Source: Microbacterium sp. cf332 (lineage in GTDB: Bacteria; Actinomycetota; Actinomycetes; Actinomycetales; Microbacteriaceae). From it: a stretch of DNA of 64,000 nt. Of the stretch, positions 15,919 to 27,169 are shown piece after piece. Location: the NCBI RefSeq assembly GCF_900102175.1, contig NZ_FNKN01000001.1:682001-746000 (forward strand), read 5' to 3'. Both the position numbers and the translations under genes were made by a program. The notes beneath the pieces were generated by a model, which searched no databases, was not told the DNA's origin, and was given only the letters and a program-made list of their open reading frames with translations. Position 1 is the stretch's first letter; each line of letters starts with the position of its first letter.

Positions 15919-16629
15919 ATGTCGTCCCGCAGCACCGCACCCGAGAAGCGCCCCGGATTCTTCTCCCAGCTCCGCTCCCTCTTCACCTTCACGAAGGAGT
16001 ACTACAGCTGGCTCCCCTGGCTGCTCATCGCGATCGTCGTCGTCGGCGTCGGTCTCGGCGTGCTCGTGGGCTTCCTCATTCCGCCCGGCGCGATCTGGAG
16101 CATCATCCTGTGGGGTGTCACGGGTCTGCTCTTCGGCGTCCTGGGCGCCATGATCACGATGACCCGGCTCGCGACGCGCGCGATGTACAAGCGCATCGAC
16201 GGGATGCCCGGCGCGACAGGCCACATCATCTCGACCAACCTCGGCCGCCGGTGGCAGGCGTCCGAGATGCCGGTCGGTGTCAACCCGAAGACCCAGGAGG
16301 CGGTCTACCGCGCCGTCGGCCGCGGTGGCGTCGTCATCATCGGCGAGGGCGCCCGCGGGCGTCTCACCCGACTCATCAACGACGAACGGGGCAAGGTCAA
16401 GCGCGTCGCGTCCGGCGTCCCCGTCCACGTGCTCTACGTGGGCCACGGCGACGACGAGGTCCCGATCGCCAAGCTCGCCCCCACGATCAAGGCGCTGCCG
16501 AAGGCTATCGACCGCACGACGATGGCCGCCGTCATCAAGCGCATCGAGTCCGTCTCGCAGTCGGTGACATCGTTGCCGATCCCGAAGGGCGTCGACCCGA
16601 TGAAGGCCCGGGCGCAGCGCCCGCGCTGA
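15919..16629 (+). CDS. DUF4191 family membrane protein
   Basis: A 236-aa protein with two membrane segments close together (WLPWLLIAIVVVGVGLGVLV and IILWGVTGLLFGVLGAMI, about residues 30-95), then a cytoplasmic domain with the family-typical GVNPKTQEAVYRAVGRGGVV and GRLTRLINDERGKVKRV. The family is conserved in actinobacteria and its function is unknown. The ATG is placed by a TAGGCT -10 element six bases upstream; an in-frame GTG two codons earlier would begin before the expected transcription start. It converges on the RDD gene with a 14-base gap. Confidence 0.8.
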   Translation: MSSRSTAPEKRPGFFSQLRSLFTFTKEYYSWLPWLLIAIVVVGVGLGVLVGFLIPPGAIWSIILWGVTGLLFGVLGAMITMTRLATRAMYKRIDGMPGATGHIISTNLGRRWQASEMPVGVNPKTQEAVYRAVGRGGVVIIGEGARGRLTRLINDERGKVKRVASGVPVHVLYVGHGDDEVPIAKLAPTIKALPKAIDRTTMAAVIKRIESVSQSVTSLPIPKGVDPMKARAQRPR

Positions 16630-16643
16630 TCCCCCGCTCTCCG

Positions 16644-17078
16644 TCAGGCGCGGACGAGGATCGTTCCCGCAGCCTTGTCGTGCAGTCCTCGCTGGTCGGG
16701 GTCGAACACGACCGCCGGCAGCACCAGCACGAGCAGCAGCGTGCGGACGATCGGACGCCACAGACCGGTCCAGCCGCCGTGCACCAGCTCGAGGCGCAGT
16801 CCGACGATGCGGTGGCCGGGACTGCCGGCGATCACCGGGATGAAGACGACCTGCAATGCCGCGAACACCGTGATGGGCGCGAACTGCGACAGGCCGGCCT
16901 CGCCCGGGAGGGCGAACTGGTCGAAACCGAAGAACGCGGTGGCGATCAGGGTGGCGGCTGCGTAGTCGATCGCCAGCGCCGCGATTCGGCGCCCGAGACG
17001 GCCGACGCTTCCCGGACCCCGTTCGGGCCTTCCCAACCGCTCGCCGGGGTAGGTGTTCTCACGCAGGGATTCGGGCAC
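16644..17078 (-). CDS. RDD family membrane protein
   Basis: A 144-aa integral membrane protein. The RDD signature appears as RRIAALAIDYAAATLI near residue 30, with further hydrophobic segments ITVFAALQVVFIPVIAG and PIVRTLLLVLVLPAVVF, and the C-terminal RGLHDKAAGT typical of the family. Transport of an unknown solute has been proposed for some members. The GTG start follows a TAGGCT -10 element by six bases, again a leaderless arrangement. Confidence 0.8.
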   Translation of the reverse strand: MPESLRENTYPGERLGRPERGPGSVGRLGRRIAALAIDYAAATLIATAFFGFDQFALPGEAGLSQFAPITVFAALQVVFIPVIAGSPGHRIVGLRLELVHGGWTGLWRPIVRTLLLVLVLPAVVFDPDQRGLHDKAAGTILVRA

Positions 17079-17084
17079 CTCCCC

Positions 17085-17090
17085 AGCCTA
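17085..17090 (-). promoter_or_regulatory. -10 element of the RDD gene, leaderless type
   Basis: TAGGCT on the minus strand ends six bases before the GTG at 17078. It lies just upstream of the GlnR-type operator that serves glnA on the other strand. Confidence 0.55.
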
Positions 17091-17105
17091 AGCGGGGGCC
17101 GCTCC

Positions 17106-17143
17106 GTAACATCCCGGAAACATCCGAGATACTGCCGAGCAAC
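17106..17143 (+). promoter_or_regulatory. GlnR-type operator upstream of glnA
   Basis: Four 5-base elements GTAAC, GAAAC, GATAC and GCAAC occur with exactly six bases between each, at 17106, 17117, 17128 and 17139. This matches the actinobacterial GlnR box (GTnAC-n6-GAAAC repeated). It ends 10 bases before a TAGGTT -10 element, a position suited to activation under nitrogen limitation. Confidence 0.8.
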
Positions 17144-17153
17144 TGGATGCCGA

Positions 17154-17159
17154 TAGGTT
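17154..17159 (+). promoter_or_regulatory. -10 element of glnA
   Basis: TAGGTT lies downstream of the GlnR-type operator; transcription would begin near 17166, leaving a 5' leader of about 45 bases. No good -35 is seen, as expected for an activator-dependent promoter. Confidence 0.5.
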
Positions 17160-17211
17160 CGAAGAGGCCCGGACCATCTCGGGCTGTTCCTCACCCGATC
17201 TTGGAGACTCC

Positions 17212-18636
17212 ATGTTCAAAGATTCTTCCGAGGTGCTCAAGTTCATCCAGGACGAGGACGTCAAGTTCCTCGACATCCGTTTCACGGATCTCCCCGGTGT
17301 GCAGCAGCACTTCAACATCCCGGCCTCGACCGTCGACGAGGAGTTCTTCACGGTCGGTCAGCTCTTCGACGGCTCGTCGATTCGCGGCTTCGCGAACATC
17401 CACGAGTCCGACATGCAGCTGATCCCGGACGTCTCGACGGCATATCTCGACCCGTTCCGCGAGGCGAAGACGCTGGTCATGATCTTCGACATCTACAACC
17501 CGCGCAACGGCGAGATCTACGCGAAGGACCCCCGCCAGGTCGCGAAGAAGGCTGAGAAGTACCTCGCCTCGACCGGAATCGCCGACACCGCGTTCTTCGC
17601 GCCCGAGGCGGAGTTCTACATCTTCGACGACGTCCGCTACGAGGTGAAGCAGAACTCGAGCTTCTACTCGGTCGACTCCGAAGAAGGCGCGTGGAACACC
17701 GGCCGCGTCGAAGAGGGCGGGAACCTCGCGAACAAGACCCCGTACAAGGGTGGCTACTTCCCCGTCTCGCCTGTCGACAAGACGGCGGACCTGCGCGACG
17801 ACATCTCGCTCAAGCTCATCGAGTCGGGCCTCGTGCTCGAGCGCGCCCACCACGAGGTCGGCACCGGTGGACAGCAGGAGATCAACTACCGCTTCGACAC
17901 CATGGTGCACTCGGCGGACGACATCCTGAAGTTCAAGTACATCGTCAAGAACACGGCGGAGCTGTGGGGCAAGGTCGCGACCTTCATGCCCAAGCCCCTC
18001 TTCGGCGACAATGGCTCGGGCATGCACACCCACCAGTCGCTGTGGCTGAACGGCGAGCCCCTCTTCTACGACGAGAAGGGCTACGGCGGTCTGTCCGACA
18101 TCGCGCGCTGGTACATCGGCGGTCTGCTCAAGCACGCTGCCGCCGTGCTCGCGTTCACGAACCCCACGCTGAACTCGTACAAGCGTCTGGTCAAGGGCTA
18201 CGAGGCCCCGGTGAACCTCGTCTACTCGGCCGGCAACCGCTCGGCGGCCATCCGCATCCCGATCACGGGCACCAACCCGAAGGCCAAGCGCATCGAGTTC
18301 CGCGCTCCCGACGCGTCGGGCAACCCGTACCTCGCGTTCGCCGCGCAGATGATGGCGGGCCTCGATGGCATCAAGAACCGCATCGAGCCGCACGAGCCGG
18401 TCGACAAGGACCTGTACGAGCTGCCGCCCGAGGAGGCCCGGAACATCCCGCAGGTTCCGAACTCGCTGCTCGACTCGCTCGAGGCACTGCGCAATGACCA
18501 CGAGTTCCTGCTGGCCGGCGGCGTGTTCACGCCCGAGCTGATCGAGACCTGGATCGAGTACAAGATCGAGAACGAGATCCAGCCGATCAACGCCCGTCCT
18601 CACCCCTACGAGTACGAGCTGTACTTCGGCGTCTGA
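17212..18636 (+). CDS. glnA: Glutamine synthetase, type I
   Basis: A 474-aa cytosolic enzyme that makes glutamine from glutamate, ammonia and ATP. Conserved blocks include [43 protein letters not shown] and [11 protein letters not shown]. The adenylylation site is visible as [14 protein letters not shown] near residue 400, and the matching adenylyltransferase glnE is 3 kb away. The ATG has GGAG four bases upstream. The upstream GlnR-type operator points to nitrogen control at transcription in addition to adenylylation. Confidence 0.96.
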
Positions 18637-18645
18637 CTTCTGGAC

Positions 18646-18700
18646 CACGACGAGCCCCGTCGCTCCCCTCTCGCGAGGGGGTCGGCGGGGCTCCGTCGTG
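18646..18700 (+). terminator. Hairpin terminator after glnA
   Basis: Nested inverted repeat: an outer, slightly imperfect pair CACGACgAGCCCCG / CGGGGCTcCGTCGTG encloses an inner CCCTCTCGCGAGGG-like hairpin, starting 10 bases after the glnA stop. Confidence 0.65.
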
Positions 18701-18767: not shown

Positions 18768-19175
18768 GTGGATCTCCGCGACATCCCCGGGCCGTTCTAC
18801 CACGGCACCAAGGCCGCGCTGCGCGTGGGCGAGCTCGTGAGACCGGGCTGCCCCTCGAATTACCGCCCGGAGATCACCATGAACCACGTCTACTTCACGG
18901 CGGTGAAGGATGGTGCCGGGCTCGCGGCCGAGATCGCGCCCGTCGATGGTGAGCCGCACGTCTACGTCGTCGAGCCGCTGGGGACCTTCGAGGACGATCC
19001 CAACGTCACGGACAAGAAGTTCCCCGGCAATCCGACACGCTCCTACCGCAGCTCGGCTCCCCTGCGCATTGTCGGAGAGGTCTCGGACTGGACGCGCCTC
19101 TCCGCCGAGGCGCGCGAGACGTGGCGGGCGCGGCTGACGCGGATGTCGGCGGAGCGGGCAGGGATCATCAACTGA
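18768..19175 (+). CDS. arr: Rifamycin ADP-ribosyltransferase
   Basis: A 135-aa enzyme of the Arr family, which inactivates rifampicin by transferring ADP-ribose from NAD+ to its ansa-chain hydroxyl. The protein matches the family almost end to end: GPFYHGTKAALRVGEL, NHVYFTAVKDGAGLAAEIA, YVVEPLGTFEDDPNVTDKKF and PGNPTRSYRS. Length is normal. It starts at a GTG with only a weak ribosome binding site, and no clear promoter was found between it and the glnA terminator. Base composition matches the host and no mobile sequence is adjacent, so it looks like a resident intrinsic gene. Confidence 0.92.
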   Translation: MDLRDIPGPFYHGTKAALRVGELVRPGCPSNYRPEITMNHVYFTAVKDGAGLAAEIAPVDGEPHVYVVEPLGTFEDDPNVTDKKFPGNPTRSYRSSAPLRIVGEVSDWTRLSAEARETWRARLTRMSAERAGIIN

Positions 19176-21678: not shown

Positions 21679-24669
21679 TTAGCCGTAGAAGAGCTTCTCG
21701 AACACGCGTCGGGCTTGGCGCGCGGCGCGCATCCAATCCTCCTCCACGGCGGTCGCGGAACGTGCCGGATAGCCCAGCAGACGACCGATCCCGTCGAGGC
21801 GCCCGCGATCGGTCGGCAGGACGTCGCTCGTCTGGCCCGACAGCAGCGTGTTGGCCGAGCGCAGCCGGCTGGCCAGCCGCCAGGCCGCGGCGAGCTTGTC
21901 GGCTGCCTCCCCCGGGATGAGCTCGGCCGAGACCGCCGCCTGCAGCGCTCCGACGGTCGAGGTGGTCCGCAGGCCCGGCACCCGGTGGCCGTGCTCGAGC
22001 TGCACGAGCTGGACGAGCCACTCGACGTCGCTGAGCCCGCCGGGGCCGAGCTTGAGGTGACGCGATCGATCTTGTCCCTGCGGCAGCCGCTCGTTCTCGA
22101 CGCGCGCCTTGATGCGGCGGATCTCGCGCAGACCCTGCGGGTCGGCCGTGACGGGGTACCGCAGGTCGTCGGCGAGCGCGAGAAACCGCGTGATGAGCGA
22201 CACGCTCCCGGCGACGCCGCGGGCCCGCAGGAGCGCTTGCGCCTCCCAGGAGAGCGACCAGCGGCGGTAGTACTCGGCGTACGAGTCGAGCGAGCGCACG
22301 AGGGGGCCGTTCCGTCCCTCGGGGCGCAGCCCGGCATCGAGCTCGAGCGGCAGTCGGTGGTCTTCGGAGTACCGCCGGATCCCCTGCACGAGAGCGAGCG
22401 CGAGCTCTTGGGCCCGCTGCGCGGGAACGCCGTTGGCGTCGTAGACGTAGATGATGTCGGCGTCCGAGCCGAAGCCGAGCTCGGCGCCGCCGAAGCGGCC
22501 CATCGCGATGACCGAGAAATCGAGACGCTCGTCCTCGGGCGGGACGATCTCGCGACGGACCGCGCGCAGCGTCGCCTGGATGGTCACCTCGGTGATGGTC
22601 GTCAGCCCCTCGGCGAGCTGTTCGATCGACAGCTCCCCCACCACCGCCGCCATCGCCAGGCGCAGGAGCTCGCGTCGGCGCAGCGCGCGCACCGCCGACA
22701 TGGCGTCGTCGATCGACGCGTGGCGGGTCTGGATCGCCCGCGCCTCCTCCTGGAGGACGATGCCGGGCCGGGGTCGCAGCTGATCGTCGGAGTCGAGCCA
22801 GGCGATGGACTCGGGGATCCACTCCATCAGCTCGCCGACGTATCGCGAACCCGAGAGCAGCCGGGTCAGGCTCTCGGCCGCTCCCGACGAGTCGCGGAGC
22901 ATCCGGAGGAACCAGGGCGTGTTCCCGAGTCTCTCGCTGACGCGCCGGAAGGCGAGCAGCCCGTAGTCGGGATCGACGCCGTCGGCGAACCAGCGGATCA
23001 TGACGGGCATCAGGTGTCGCTGGATGACCGCCTTGCGGCTGAGCCCGCTCGTCAGCGCCCCCATGTGGCGCAGCGCGCCCGCGGGGTCGCGGAACCCGAT
23101 GGCGGCCAGGCGCGCCTTCGCCTGCTCCGGCGAGAGGGTGTGCTCATCGGCCGGGAGCGCGGCGACCGCCGACAGCAGCGGCCGGTAGAAGAGCCGTACG
23201 TGGATCTCGCGCACCTCGCGCTTGATCTCCTCCCACGCCGCGACGACGCGGTCGCCGCCGTCGCCGACACGGGACGATCGAGCGAGGGTGCGCAGCGAGG
23301 CGCCGTCCTCGGGCATGAGGTGGGTGCGCCGCAGCTCGCGCAGCTGCAGACGGTGCTCCATGACGCGCAGCCGCCGGTAGTCCAGCGCGAAGCGCGCGGC
23401 ATCCTCCCGGCCGATGTACCCCTCGGACACGAGCGCGTCGAGGGCGTCGAGCGTGGACCGCTCCCGGATGCGCTCGTCCGACGCCCCGTGCACGAGTTGC
23501 AGCAGCTGCACGGTGAACTCGATGTCGCGGATGCCACCCGGCCCCAGCTTGAGCTGGCGGGCGACCTCGCCCGACGGGATGTGGTCGGTCACGCGCTCGC
23601 GCATCCGCTGCACGCTCTCGACGAAGTTGTCGCGCGCCGAGCTCGCCCACACCTTCGGCTGCACCGCCTCGACGTACTGCTCGCCGAGCTCGACGTCGCC
23701 CGCCAGCGGCCGGGCCTTCAGCAGAGCCTGGAACTCCCAGCTCTTCGCCCACCGGTCGTAGTAGGCGATGTGCGATTCGAGCGTGCGGACGAGGGCACCC
23801 TGCTTCCCCTCGGGACGCAGGTTCGGATCGACCTCCCAGAGGGGGGGCTCGATCTCGACCTCGGAGATGCCGCGCATCGTCTGGATCGCGAGTCGCGTCG
23901 CGATCTCGATCGCGCGGGCCTCCGGCGCAGCGGCGTCGTCGGCCGTCCCGCCGACGAAGATGACGTCGACGTCGCTCACGTAGTTGAGCTCGCGCGCCCC
24001 GGACTTGCCCATGCCGATGATGGCGAGCCGGGTCGCGGCGACCGCCTCGCGGTCGAAACGCCCGGCGCCGGGCACCCCGGCCACGAGCCGGCTGCGCGCG
24101 ACTGCGAGCGAGGCCTCGAGGGCGGCTCCCGCGGCGTCGGCGAGGGCGGCCGCGACGGCGTGGAGCACGAGCGTCGGATCGGACGACGAGAGGTCGAACC
24201 GCGCGATCCGCGCCAGCATGCGGCGGTACCGGACCCGAAGCGCGACCCAGGCCTCGTCGCCCGATCCGGTGGCGAAGCCGTCACGCGCGCCGACCGCCTC
24301 GAGCATCGACGTGGCGAGCTCGTCGCGGGTCGGGAGCCCGTCGCCCTCCGACGCGAGGTCGGCCAGTTCCGCCGGGTGGCGGAGGTAGAAGTCGGCGAGC
24401 CCCGTCGAGGCGCCGAGGACCGTCCACACCGCTTCCGGCCGACGGCGCAGGGCGTCACCGACGACGGATGCATCCCGGCGGGCGATGCGCAACAGTGCGG
24501 CGACCGCGCCGTCGGGGTCGGCAGCGACCTCGGCCGCACCCACCAGCTCGTCGCGGTCGACACCCGTCAGCTCCGCGAGCTCGACGAGGTCGGCATCCGC
24601 CCGCCCGAGATCGTCGAACCCCGCTCGCGCCAGCCCCGTCAGTCCGGTCGAACGAAGTGACCGGGTCAT
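21679..24669 (-). CDS. glnE: Glutamine-synthetase adenylyltransferase / deadenylylase
   Basis: A 996-aa bifunctional nucleotidyltransferase that adds AMP to and removes it from a tyrosine of glutamine synthetase. The two nucleotidyltransferase domains are seen in their usual order: an N-terminal one with LNYVSDVDVIFVGG and a C-terminal one with ELGFGSDADIIYVYDANG. Each is followed by a GGIRDIEF or GGLSDVEW block (LKLGPGGIRDIEF, LKLGPGGLSDVEW). The gene starts four bases after the glnA2 stop and both run with DUF808, indicating one transcript. Its target Tyr motif is present in the nearby glnA. Confidence 0.95.
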   Translation of the reverse strand: MTRSLRSTGLTGLARAGFDDLGRADADLVELAELTGVDRDELVGAAEVAADPDGAVAALLRIARRDASVVGDALRRRPEAVWTVLGASTGLADFYLRHPAELADLASEGDGLPTRDELATSMLEAVGARDGFATGSGDEAWVALRVRYRRMLARIARFDLSSSDPTLVLHAVAAALADAAGAALEASLAVARSRLVAGVPGAGRFDREAVAATRLAIIGMGKSGARELNYVSDVDVIFVGGTADDAAAPEARAIEIATRLAIQTMRGISEVEIEPPLWEVDPNLRPEGKQGALVRTLESHIAYYDRWAKSWEFQALLKARPLAGDVELGEQYVEAVQPKVWASSARDNFVESVQRMRERVTDHIPSGEVARQLKLGPGGIRDIEFTVQLLQLVHGASDERIRERSTLDALDALVSEGYIGREDAARFALDYRRLRVMEHRLQLRELRRTHLMPEDGASLRTLARSSRVGDGGDRVVAAWEEIKREVREIHVRLFYRPLLSAVAALPADEHTLSPEQAKARLAAIGFRDPAGALRHMGALTSGLSRKAVIQRHLMPVMIRWFADGVDPDYGLLAFRRVSERLGNTPWFLRMLRDSSGAAESLTRLLSGSRYVGELMEWIPESIAWLDSDDQLRPRPGIVLQEEARAIQTRHASIDDAMSAVRALRRRELLRLAMAAVVGELSIEQLAEGLTTITEVTIQATLRAVRREIVPPEDERLDFSVIAMGRFGGAELGFGSDADIIYVYDANGVPAQRAQELALALVQGIRRYSEDHRLPLELDAGLRPEGRNGPLVRSLDSYAEYYRRWSLSWEAQALLRARGVAGSVSLITRFLALADDLRYPVTADPQGLREIRRIKARVENERLPQGQDRSRHLKLGPGGLSDVEWLVQLVQLEHGHRVPGLRTTSTVGALQAAVSAELIPGEAADKLAAAWRLASRLRSANTLLSGQTSDVLPTDRGRLDGIGRLLGYPARSATAVEEDWMRAARQARRVFEKLFYG

Positions 24670-24673
24670 GGCG

Positions 24674-26011
24674 TCAGAGCATCTCCAGGTTGCTCTTGAG
24701 CTCGAACGGCGTCACCTGGGCGCGGTAGTTCTGCCACTCGCGACGCTTGTTGAGCAGGACGTAGTTGAAGACCTGCTCGCCCAGGGTCTCGGCGACGAGC
24801 TCGGACTCCTCCATGTACTCGAGGGCGTGGTCGAGGCTCGCGGGCAGCGGCGCGTAGCCGAGGGCGCGACGCTCGGAGTCCGTCAGCGACCAGACGTTGT
24901 CCTCGGCCTCGGCGGGCAGCTCGTATCCCTCCTCGATGCCCTTGAGCCCGGCAGCGAGCAGCAGCGCGTACGCGAGGTACGGGTTGGCCGCCGAGTCGAG
25001 GGCGCGGTACTCGACGCGCGACGACTGGCTCTTGTTGGGCTTGTACATCGGCACGCGCACGAGGGCCGAGCGGTTGTTGTGGCCCCAGGTGATAAAGCTC
25101 GGGGCCTCGTCGCCGCCCCACAGCCGCTTGTACGAGTTGACGAACTGGTTCGTCACGGCCGAGATCTCGTTCGCGTGGCGCAGGAGGCCGGCGATGAAGT
25201 GCCGGCCGGTCTGCGACAGCTGGTACTGGCCGCCCTCCTCGTAGAACGCGTTCACGTCGCCCTCGAAGAGCGACATGTGCGTGTGCATGCCGCTTCCCGG
25301 GTGGCCGCTGAGGGGCTTCGGCATGAAGGTCGCGTACACGCCCTGCTCGATCGCCACCTCCTTGATGACCGTGCGGAAGGTCATGATGTTGTCGGCTGTG
25401 GCGAGGGCGTCCGCGTAGCGCAGGTCGATCTCGTTCTGGCCGGGACCGCCCTCGTGGTGGCTGTACTCGACGGAGATGCCCAGGTCTTCGAGCATCCGCA
25501 CCGAGCGACGTCGGAAGTCGTGCGCCGTGCCGCCGGGGACGTTGTCGAAGTAGCCGGCCGAGTCGACCGGCTCGGGCCCGTCGGGCCCGTAGGACGACGA
25601 CTTCAGCAGGTAGAACTCGATCTCAGGGTGCGTGTAGAAGGTGAAGCCCGCGTCGGCCGCCTTCGCGAGCGTGCGCTTGAGGACGTGGCGCGGATCGGCG
25701 ACCGCGGGCTGACCGTCGGGCGTCGTGATGTCGCAGAACATCCGGGCGGTCGGGTCGATCTCACCGCGCCAGGGCAGCAGCTGGAACGTCGACGGATCGG
25801 GATGGGCCAGCAGGTCGGACTCGTAGCTGCGGGTCAGCCCTTCGATGGCCGAGCCGTCGAAGCCGAGCCCCTCGGCGAACGCCCCCTCGACCTCGGCCGG
25901 CGCGATGGCCACCGATTTGAGGGTTCCGATCACATCGGTGAACCAGAGCCGGACGAACTTGACGCCCCGCTCCTCGATCGTTCGCAGTACGAAGTCCCGC
26001 TGCTTGTCCAT
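24674..26011 (-). CDS. glnA2: Glutamine synthetase family protein, second copy
   Basis: A 445-aa type I glutamine synthetase. Catalytic blocks are FYTHPEIEFYLLKS, HHEGGPGQNEIDLRY, GHPGSGMHTHMSLFEG and HNNRSALVRVP. It is shorter than glnA, lacking part of the insertion typical of the beta subtype, and no GlnR-type operator was seen in the short upstream region. Actinobacterial GlnA2 proteins can be accessory glutamine synthetases or gamma-glutamyl ligases, so the true substrate is uncertain. It precedes glnE by four bases. Confidence 0.9.
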   Translation of the reverse strand: MDKQRDFVLRTIEERGVKFVRLWFTDVIGTLKSVAIAPAEVEGAFAEGLGFDGSAIEGLTRSYESDLLAHPDPSTFQLLPWRGEIDPTARMFCDITTPDGQPAVADPRHVLKRTLAKAADAGFTFYTHPEIEFYLLKSSSYGPDGPEPVDSAGYFDNVPGGTAHDFRRRSVRMLEDLGISVEYSHHEGGPGQNEIDLRYADALATADNIMTFRTVIKEVAIEQGVYATFMPKPLSGHPGSGMHTHMSLFEGDVNAFYEEGGQYQLSQTGRHFIAGLLRHANEISAVTNQFVNSYKRLWGGDEAPSFITWGHNNRSALVRVPMYKPNKSQSSRVEYRALDSAANPYLAYALLLAAGLKGIEEGYELPAEAEDNVWSLTDSERRALGYAPLPASLDHALEYMEESELVAETLGEQVFNYVLLNKRREWQNYRAQVTPFELKSNLEML

Positions 26012-26043
26012 CGCGTCCTCTCCGAGACAGGGTCGGTTCCAGA

Positions 26044-26265
26044 CTACTGGCGGCGAGCGTCCTCCGACGGCGGCGTGCCCCAGTCGTCCTCCTGGGCTTC
26101 GTCCTCGCGCCAGGCCTGCGCGCGATCCGCCATGAGCTGCGGAGCCCGCGCCGCCTCGTCGGCGGAGCGGAACGGGCCGGCTCGGTCGGCCCCCGGGGAC
26201 TGCTTGCCGTGCTCCACCTCGTGCGTCACGAGGTTGTACCAGAACTCGCCGTCGGCATCGGGCAT
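26044..26265 (-). CDS. Small SPOR-like protein
   Basis: A 73-aa soluble protein starting MPDADGEFWYNLVTHEVEHG. The order FWYNLVTHEVEHGKQS, GPFRSADEAARAP and a charged tail matches small actinobacterial proteins annotated as SPOR-domain proteins; the match is by recall. It has an AGGAGC ribosome binding site and ends 33 bases before the glnA2 start, so co-transcription is possible. Function unknown. Confidence 0.65.
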   Translation of the reverse strand: MPDADGEFWYNLVTHEVEHGKQSPGADRAGPFRSADEAARAPQLMADRAQAWREDEAQEDDWGTPPSEDARRQ

Positions 26266-26331
26266 GATCGCTCCTGACTTGCGCCTGCGCCGGCGCTCAG
26301 CCCGAGCCTAATCGGCGGGGCGGACGGTCGA

Positions 26332-26337
26332 TAGGCT
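26332..26337 (+). promoter_or_regulatory. -10 element of ppgK, leaderless type
   Basis: TAGGCT ends seven bases before the ATG at 26345. Confidence 0.6.
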
Positions 26338-26344
26338 GGGTCGC

Positions 26345-27169
26345 ATGAGTGCGAGTGCGACGCGGGCCGTCGGGGTGGACATCGGGGGAACCGGGATCAA
26401 GGGAGCCGTCGTCGACCTGTCGACGGGCGACCTGCTGACCGACCGCATCAAGGTCGCGACGCCGAAGGGCGCCGTACCCGAAGACGTGCTGGACGCCGTC
26501 AAGGTCGTGCTCGACCGGCTCGAGGTGACCGACGCGGGCGACGTGCCGCTGGGAGTCGCGTTCCCCGCGATCGTCAAGAACGGACGCACGCTCTCAGCCG
26601 CGAACGTCGCCGACACCTGGATCGACTTCGAGGCGGAGCGCTTCTTCGAGAAGGGCCTCGGGCGTCAGATCCATTTCGCCAACGACGCGGACGTCGCCGG
26701 TGTCGCCGAGCTGCGCTACGGCGCCGCTCGCGACCGCGACGGCCTGGTGATCCTGACGACGCTCGGCACCGGCATCGGCTCGGCCATGATCTACAACGGC
26801 GTGCTCATCCCGAACTCCGAGCTCGGTCACGTCCACCGCGCCAAGCACGGCAAGGATGCCGAGGCGTGGGCCGCGTACTCGGCGATGGAGCGCGACGAGC
26901 TCGACTGGGCCGAGTGGGCCGAGCGGCTGCAGTGGTACTACAGCCACATCGAGTTCCTCTTCTCCCCCGACCTGTTCGTGGTGGGGGGCGGCGTCTCGAA
27001 GCACGCCGACAAGTTCCTGCCCCTGCTCGACCTGAAGACGCCCATCGTGCCCGCCGTCCACCGCAACAACGCCGGCATCATCGGCGCGGCCGCGCTCGCG
27101 CTCGCGGGCGAACGTCCCGGTGTCCTGGACGAGACCACGGAGGACCTCGCCGGCACCACGGCGCACTGA
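26345..27169 (+). CDS. ppgK: Polyphosphate glucokinase (ROK family)
   Basis: A 274-aa kinase that phosphorylates glucose with polyphosphate (or ATP). The ATP/phosphate loop is VGVDIGGTGIKGAVVD; other family blocks are FANDADVAGVAELRYG, LTTLGTGIGSAMIYNG and the polyphosphate-glucokinase-typical NSELGHVHRAKHGKDAE. Length is normal. It has a leaderless-type promoter and ends in a hairpin that overlaps its stop codon. It is the last host gene before the genomic island. Confidence 0.93.
   Translation: MSASATRAVGVDIGGTGIKGAVVDLSTGDLLTDRIKVATPKGAVPEDVLDAVKVVLDRLEVTDAGDVPLGVAFPAIVKNGRTLSAANVADTWIDFEAERFFEKGLGRQIHFANDADVAGVAELRYGAARDRDGLVILTTLGTGIGSAMIYNGVLIPNSELGHVHRAKHGKDAEAWAAYSAMERDELDWAEWAERLQWYYSHIEFLFSPDLFVVGGGVSKHADKFLPLLDLKTPIVPAVHRNNAGIIGAAALALAGERPGVLDETTEDLAGTTAH

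Follow-up and report, generated by a model that had tools for sequence, protein, structure and literature searches.

A predicted GlnR operator at a fixed distance from the glnA -10 hexamer in Microbacterium sp. cf332

The four short repeats at 17106-17143, directly upstream of the glutamine synthetase gene glnA of Microbacterium sp. cf332, are almost certainly an operator for the nitrogen regulator GlnR at the glnA promoter, where GlnR is predicted to bind and to activate transcription. That the element is an ordinary regulatory site of a known kind, correctly read, is strongly supported; the GlnR box and its consensus have long been established, as the available text of two sources makes clear (PMC10704036; PMC3662644). 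The site lies in a window of 64,000 nucleotides (the whole stretch of DNA that was analysed), in which the following features are of concern.

16644-17078, minus strand: gene for an RDD-family protein (144 aa; Pfam PF06271), divergent from glnA
17085-17090, minus strand: TAGGCT, predicted -10 hexamer of the RDD gene, 6 bp from the GTG
17106-17143, plus strand: GlnR operator, four head-to-tail 5-bp half-sites with an 11-bp period
17154-17159, plus strand: -10 hexamer TAGGTT of glnA, 10 bp 3' of the operator
17166-17211, plus strand: predicted glnA leader, with the transcription start at about 17166 inferred from the -10 hexamer
17212-18636, plus strand: glnA, type I glutamine synthetase, 474 aa, ATG at 17212 (NCBIfam TIGR00653)
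21679-24669, minus strand: glnE-type adenylyltransferase gene, no GlnR box upstream
24674-26011, minus strand: glnA2-type glutamine synthetase gene, no GlnR box upstream

The half-sites are a1 (GTAAC, 17106-17110), b1 (GAAAC, 17117-17121), a2 (GATAC, 17128-17132) and b2 (GCAAC, 17139-17143), and each of the three spacers between them is 6 bp. A 10-bp stretch, TGGATGCCGA, separates the operator from TAGGTT. The first-pass annotation had described GTAAC-n6-GAAAC-n6-GATAC-n6-GCAAC with spacers of exactly six bases and TAGGTT ten bases further on, and this is what is found at 17106-17143 and 17154-17159. The operator sits on the coding strand at the predicted promoter of a nitrogen gene and agrees, except for its a2 and b2 variants, with the published GlnR consensus gTnAc-n6-GaAAc-n6-GtnAC-n6-GAAAc given in the available part of PMC10704036. 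It shares the a-b-a-b order, the 6-bp spacers and the presence of a GlnR gene with the glnA box of Streptomyces coelicolor and other actinomycetes (Tiffert et al. 2008, as cited in that part of PMC10704036); it differs from the S. coelicolor box in having GATAC and GCAAC as a2 and b2 in place of GtnAC and GAAAc, and in that no PII protein was found here. Written as an IUPAC pattern of four half-sites, the box has one exact match in the whole genome (3,269,659 bases), and the same pattern read backwards has none. With a 38-position weight matrix trained on 167 glnA sites, from which the window was excluded and in which close relatives were kept, the operator scores 52.1 bits, and the second-best independent site of the window reaches -12.4. 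The product of the gene that follows matches the GlnA equivalog family (NCBIfam TIGR00653) at 651.6 bits against a cut-off of 429.15 and is 99% identical to GlnA of M. thalli.

The genome also encodes the regulator. The first-pass annotation had named the absence of any glnR homologue as the result that would speak against its reading; a GlnR orthologue, P0001, was found on contig C5 (locus L002), matching Pfam GlnR_1st (PF21695) at 145.7 bits (cut-off 27) and Trans_reg_C at 99.9 bits, and it is one of 15 matches to the OmpR-type DNA-binding domain in the genome. NCBIfam returned OmpR-family matches below cut-off only, among the 25 of 39 matches listed. The best PDB sequence matches are 8hih_O (E 7.9e-75), 8hig_A (2.3e-73) and 8hml_A, whose table entries call them regulators only and which we take to be GlnR, followed by 4o1i_A and 4o1h_A; the last is named Transcription regulator GlnR and matches at E 2e-25. 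In the alignments shown, the recognition-helix region of P0001 is identical to that of the PDB chains, and its FVDARHDL segment aligns with VDAR, so that Asp-x-Arg is kept. This pair would correspond to D50 and R52, residues whose roles in the atypical GlnR receiver are described in the available text of PMC10704036. Autoregulation of glnR was considered and rejected: the 3.2 kb around the gene hold no box-like site (best score -22.7 with a 27-position matrix).

The box and its position are highly conserved at glnA. Eighty named glnA loci were compared, the best 80 of at least 586 relatives found and thus skewed to close ones, from Microbacterium, Leifsonia, Agromyces, Curtobacterium, Herbiconiux, Rathayibacter and others. 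GTAAC-n6-GAAAC (a1 and b1) is identical in 80/80, with two looser half-sites then in phase, and TANNNT stands exactly 10 bp 3' of the box in all 80. Among these loci a1 and b1 hardly vary whereas a2 and b2 do; this constancy cannot be read from the 89 further upstream regions described below, as a1 and b1 were prescribed by the pattern used to find them. Box and ATG are 60 to 84 apart in the named loci, and since this distance varies while the distance from box to -10 hexamer is fixed, the constraint acts on the operator together with the -10 hexamer. Such a fixed distance would follow from a need for bound GlnR to contact RNA polymerase in one set position. One named locus, L037, lies on a contig labelled Stenotrophomonas maltophilia; its glnA is of Microbacterium type (94% identity) and has the same operator, probably because the assembly is contaminated.

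The spacing holds in a wider sample, to which 80 glnA-looking places among those listed in a scan of the family and 30 loci from the scan were added. A 27-base pattern, with identical contexts removed, reduced 191 loci to 180 distinct boxes; 168 of these precede a glnA called by its start-codon motif (79 from the named set or the window, 89 others), and the -10 hexamer was taken as the first TANNNT from offset 8 onward. The gap is 10 in 166/168 distinct glnA upstreams and 9 in the remaining 2. Among the 12 boxes not counted as glnA, several of which probably belong to a glnA with another start, the hexamer is found at 10 in 8 cases, at 11 in 2 and not at all in 2. In a draw of 394 genomes from the class, the strict box was found in 80, against 4 for the backwards control (counted from the listing). 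Of the strict-box loci, 29 were fetched (part of the places listed); 27 precede glnA, 14 from the organism's own family and 13 from other families, and the gap is 10 in 26 of them and 11 in L134. The operator-to-promoter spacing is thus constant enough in the loci examined to be used as a rule for annotation. The strict four-half-site pattern is missing from 314/394 class genomes, most of which seem, by their E-values, to have GlnR, so the exact form is not universal among GlnR bearers; a class-level GlnR count at E <= 0.001 is uninformative, because OmpR paralogues give matches in 394/394 genomes.

Within the family genomes examined, operator and GlnR are present and lost together. The box pattern occurs in 174/229 family genomes, against 3 for the reversed control (counted from the listing), and among the 55 genomes without it, 14 lack GlnR and 41 have it. 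This division was set by a gap in the best matches, which run from 6.2e-18 to 2.8e-27 (a level shared by other OmpR proteins) in genomes counted as GlnR-less and are 2.7e-59 or better in those counted as GlnR-bearing. Upstream regions of glnA were taken from 30 of the 55 genomes, comprising all 14 GlnR-less and 16 of the 41 GlnR-bearing ones, and 28 were scored; the two unscored are incomplete GlnR-less genomes, G581 (59% complete, no glnA match) and G543 (88%, ending within glnA). None of the 12 scored GlnR-less genomes has a box at glnA; their best score is -18.3, in G408, a 0.9-Mb genome that looks AT-rich, set against a rough null derived from the window with a 95% level of -25.3. In 13 of the 16 scored GlnR-bearing genomes without the strict pattern, a relaxed box is found at glnA (26.6 or higher), with TANNNT at 10 in 12 of the 13; the other three (L259, L262 and L264) have only a degenerate site although GlnR is present. 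Conversely, GlnR was found in 78/78 of the box-bearing family genomes tested out of the 174 (worst E 9.5e-69), in some of which the box was found in the genome and not placed at glnA.

Two genera hold both states. In g157, G413 has GlnR and a box at glnA, and G490, G548 and G596 have neither; in g209, G465 and G574 encode GlnR and contain the pattern at some place in the genome, and G525 has neither. Family genomes are related, so these counts are not independent, and the 12 scored GlnR-less genomes amount to six genera. These 12, without a box at glnA, are G398, G408, G420, G443, G478, G490, G510, G525, G538, G548, G587 and G596, several of them of 0.9-2 Mb. Genomes in which both GlnR and its site have been lost in nature provide a built-in control.

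Conservation in 80/80 loci, the GlnR gene and a box that tracks GlnR together indicate a GlnR-controlled glnA promoter. The first-pass annotation had recognised the GlnR box architecture, and its reading is borne out by the fit to the consensus, the GlnR gene and the joint occurrence and loss. GlnR, an OmpR-type orphan response regulator of actinomycetes, would act at this promoter, which has a good -10 hexamer in TAGGTT and probably no recognisable -35; by eye no TTGACA-like -35 hexamer of glnA was recognised, and a2 and b2 occupy that position. Four GlnR DNA-binding domains may occupy the four half-sites head to tail, from about -60 to -23, and on nitrogen shortage the bound array would recruit RNA polymerase, replacing the -35 contact and raising glnA transcription. 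Occupancy, tetrameric binding and activation, including its direction, are proposed here by analogy with published GlnR work. In the available text of PMC3662644, M. smegmatis GlnR represses some targets too, so the site alone is no proof of activation. The sequences support GlnR control of glnA across much of the family to which Microbacterium belongs.

Two other origins of the repeats were weighed. The probability that GC-rich DNA produced this series of GNNAC words by chance is negligible. Looser forms of the pattern do arise in this way: at up to 3 mismatches the window gives 2 matches, one of them an 11-bp shift of the glnA site, against 0.99 expected, which leaves only the exact form informative, and a slightly stricter pattern, when 3 mismatches or fewer are allowed, gives 7 matches in the genome against 6 for the backwards control, which indicates that weak operator matches are mostly noise. 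The intact operator behaves otherwise, as its 52.1 bits compare with maxima of -10.4 to -23.6 in ten Markov sequences of 64 kb, and its conservation in 80/80 named loci refutes chance.

It is also improbable, if less so than chance, that an OmpR-type regulator other than GlnR, one that uses 11-bp direct repeats such as PhoP, binds here and that the link to GlnR is incidental. PhoP binds 11-bp repeats, and its PHO box reads G(G/T)TCAYYYR(G/C)G; the half-sites appear to fit GlnR and not this repeat, and inspection by eye revealed no PHO-box repeats in the operator region. A regulator of this kind could be drawn from the 15 OmpR-type DNA-binding domain matches in the genome, and at glnA of S. coelicolor PhoP competes with GlnR for overlapping sites (PMC10704036, available text). 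However, the glnA box is absent from the 12 scored GlnR-less genomes, in which other OmpR-type proteins do match. PhoP may nevertheless bind at this site in addition to GlnR.

A related question is whether the operator also serves the divergent gene, with GlnR activating glnA and either repressing or activating the promoter of the RDD gene, whose product matches Pfam PF06271 at 30.3 bits (cut-off 24.1). The RDD transcript is probably leaderless, since TAGGCT lies six bases before the GTG. The first-pass annotation had placed the operator 16 bases from this hexamer; the two do adjoin, but 15 bases lie between them and 16 is the difference of the coordinates. It had added that GlnR could affect the RDD gene, which holds as a steric possibility: the -35 region of the RDD promoter falls within the box, which extends over about -28 to -65 relative to the start predicted for RDD. 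RDD and glnA are divergently arranged in 76/80 named loci, and in the available text of PMC3662644 GlnR of M. smegmatis controls 6 pairs of divergent genes. In 109/168 glnA upstreams a leaderless promoter-like site with its -10 hexamer at most 18 bp from the box is seen on the RDD side, where sites were called by pattern and open frame and not by homology.

The geometry on that side speaks against shared control. Among the 168 upstreams the gap between box and RDD-side hexamer is 14-16 bp in 68, 11 in 31, another value up to 18 in 10 and 24-136 in 43, with no RDD-side promoter detected in 16; the full range among relatives is 6 to 136 bp. By contrast, the glnA-side gap varies by no more than one base in this set. 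The RDD gene is moreover reversed, onto the same strand as glnA, in L041, L071, L077 and L095, and the box is kept. Gaps of 15, 26 and 36 bp in the first 80 loci had suggested that the RDD promoter might be in helical phase with the box; the gaps show no phasing by eye, and the idea was rejected when the larger set added 24, 27, 30, 33, 41, 44, 47, 54 and more. The operator is tied to glnA rather than to RDD; given the varying distance and the flipped gene in 4/80, GlnR control of RDD is possible, and an operator serving both genes is rather unlikely. Steric interference at the RDD promoter is plausible in most of the 168 loci.

The two other nitrogen genes of the window, which we take to be glnA2 (24674-26011) and glnE (21679-24669), had been described as lacking such a site, and the matrix agrees: no GlnR box was found upstream of glnA2 (25990-26420, best score -39.5) or of glnE (24640-24900, best score -47.3). 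The arrangement has points in common with the GlnR regulon of M. smegmatis as the available text of PMC3662644 presents it, namely a site at glnA1, a site at amtB (here predicted) and divergent neighbours. It differs in that, according to the same text, glnA2 of M. smegmatis is bound or under GlnR control, whereas glnA2 here is without a site, and in that M. smegmatis has an amtB-glnK-glnD operon, whereas glnK was not found here by Pfam search.

Further sites in the genome are predictions from sequence, and the matches are in part noise, as the scans behind them gave 7 matches against 6 for the control and, with a second pattern, 7 against 0. A candidate with two mismatches lies just before amtB (C8:658847-658884, minus strand; gene named by eye); it keeps GTAAC-n6-GAAAC and has no TANNNT at 10 bp. 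After this amtB no glnK-like frame was recognised by eye, and a hairpin-like repeat is seen 3' of the gene. Another candidate (C6:666332-666369, minus strand) precedes a gene that looks by eye like one for a solute-binding lipoprotein; here TAGCTT follows the box at a distance of 11 bp. It is about 12 kb from frames that resemble, by eye, allantoinase and allantoin/hydantoin racemase, and the neighbourhood is possibly a nitrogen-scavenging cluster. A candidate match to three half-sites (C6:365516-365542, minus strand), with TACGCT at the 10-bp position, precedes a gene resembling by eye an XRE-type regulator with a cupin-like tail.

The genome has GlnR, AmtB and a glnE-type gene, but no PII (GlnK/GlnB) was found. 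A search with PF00543, which could miss a distant or split PII, returned no match in this genome, rated 100% complete, and matched 13/14 control genomes. Such a system appears workable, since in the available text of PMC10704036 the GlnE-dependent control of glutamine synthetase in S. coelicolor is independent of GlnK and GlnD. We tentatively suggest, at somewhat less than even chances, that in this lineage GlnR controls glnA, and probably also amtB and a small number of scavenging genes, in the absence of PII, the signal arriving by a PII-independent route; modification of GlnR, or contact with glutamine synthetase itself, would be examples. If this is true, Microbacterium would be a minimal model for how GlnR senses nitrogen, and, with PII apparently absent from the genome, the function of GlnR would be set apart from signalling through PII.

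The contrast that the first-pass annotation had drawn with the AmtR system of corynebacteria is less secure than the rest of its reading. Clavibacter michiganensis presumably belongs to the same family as Microbacterium. It has both GlnR and AmtR (PMC4222082, available text), and GlnR in this family has therefore already been noted. AmtR of Corynebacterium glutamicum has the nitrogen control of transcription in common with GlnR; the AmtR operator differs from the GlnR operator. AmtR is also a TetR-type regulator in the available text of PMC8864220, unlike the OmpR-type GlnR. Among the open-access papers listed in a literature search, none describes, by title and the start of the abstract, the operator in Microbacterium or the constant spacing.

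Downstream of the promoter, the predicted glnA leader includes a ribosome-binding site (GGAG, 17203-17206). An RNA element in the leader was considered and rejected, as Rfam gave no match up to E 1 in 16500-17400. A G+C-rich inverted repeat at 18653-18691, 3' of glnA, is by its sequence probably a transcription terminator, and just beyond it, at 18768-19172 on the plus strand, is a gene for an Arr-type rifampin ADP-ribosyltransferase (Pfam PF12120, 155.7 bits, cut-off 25).
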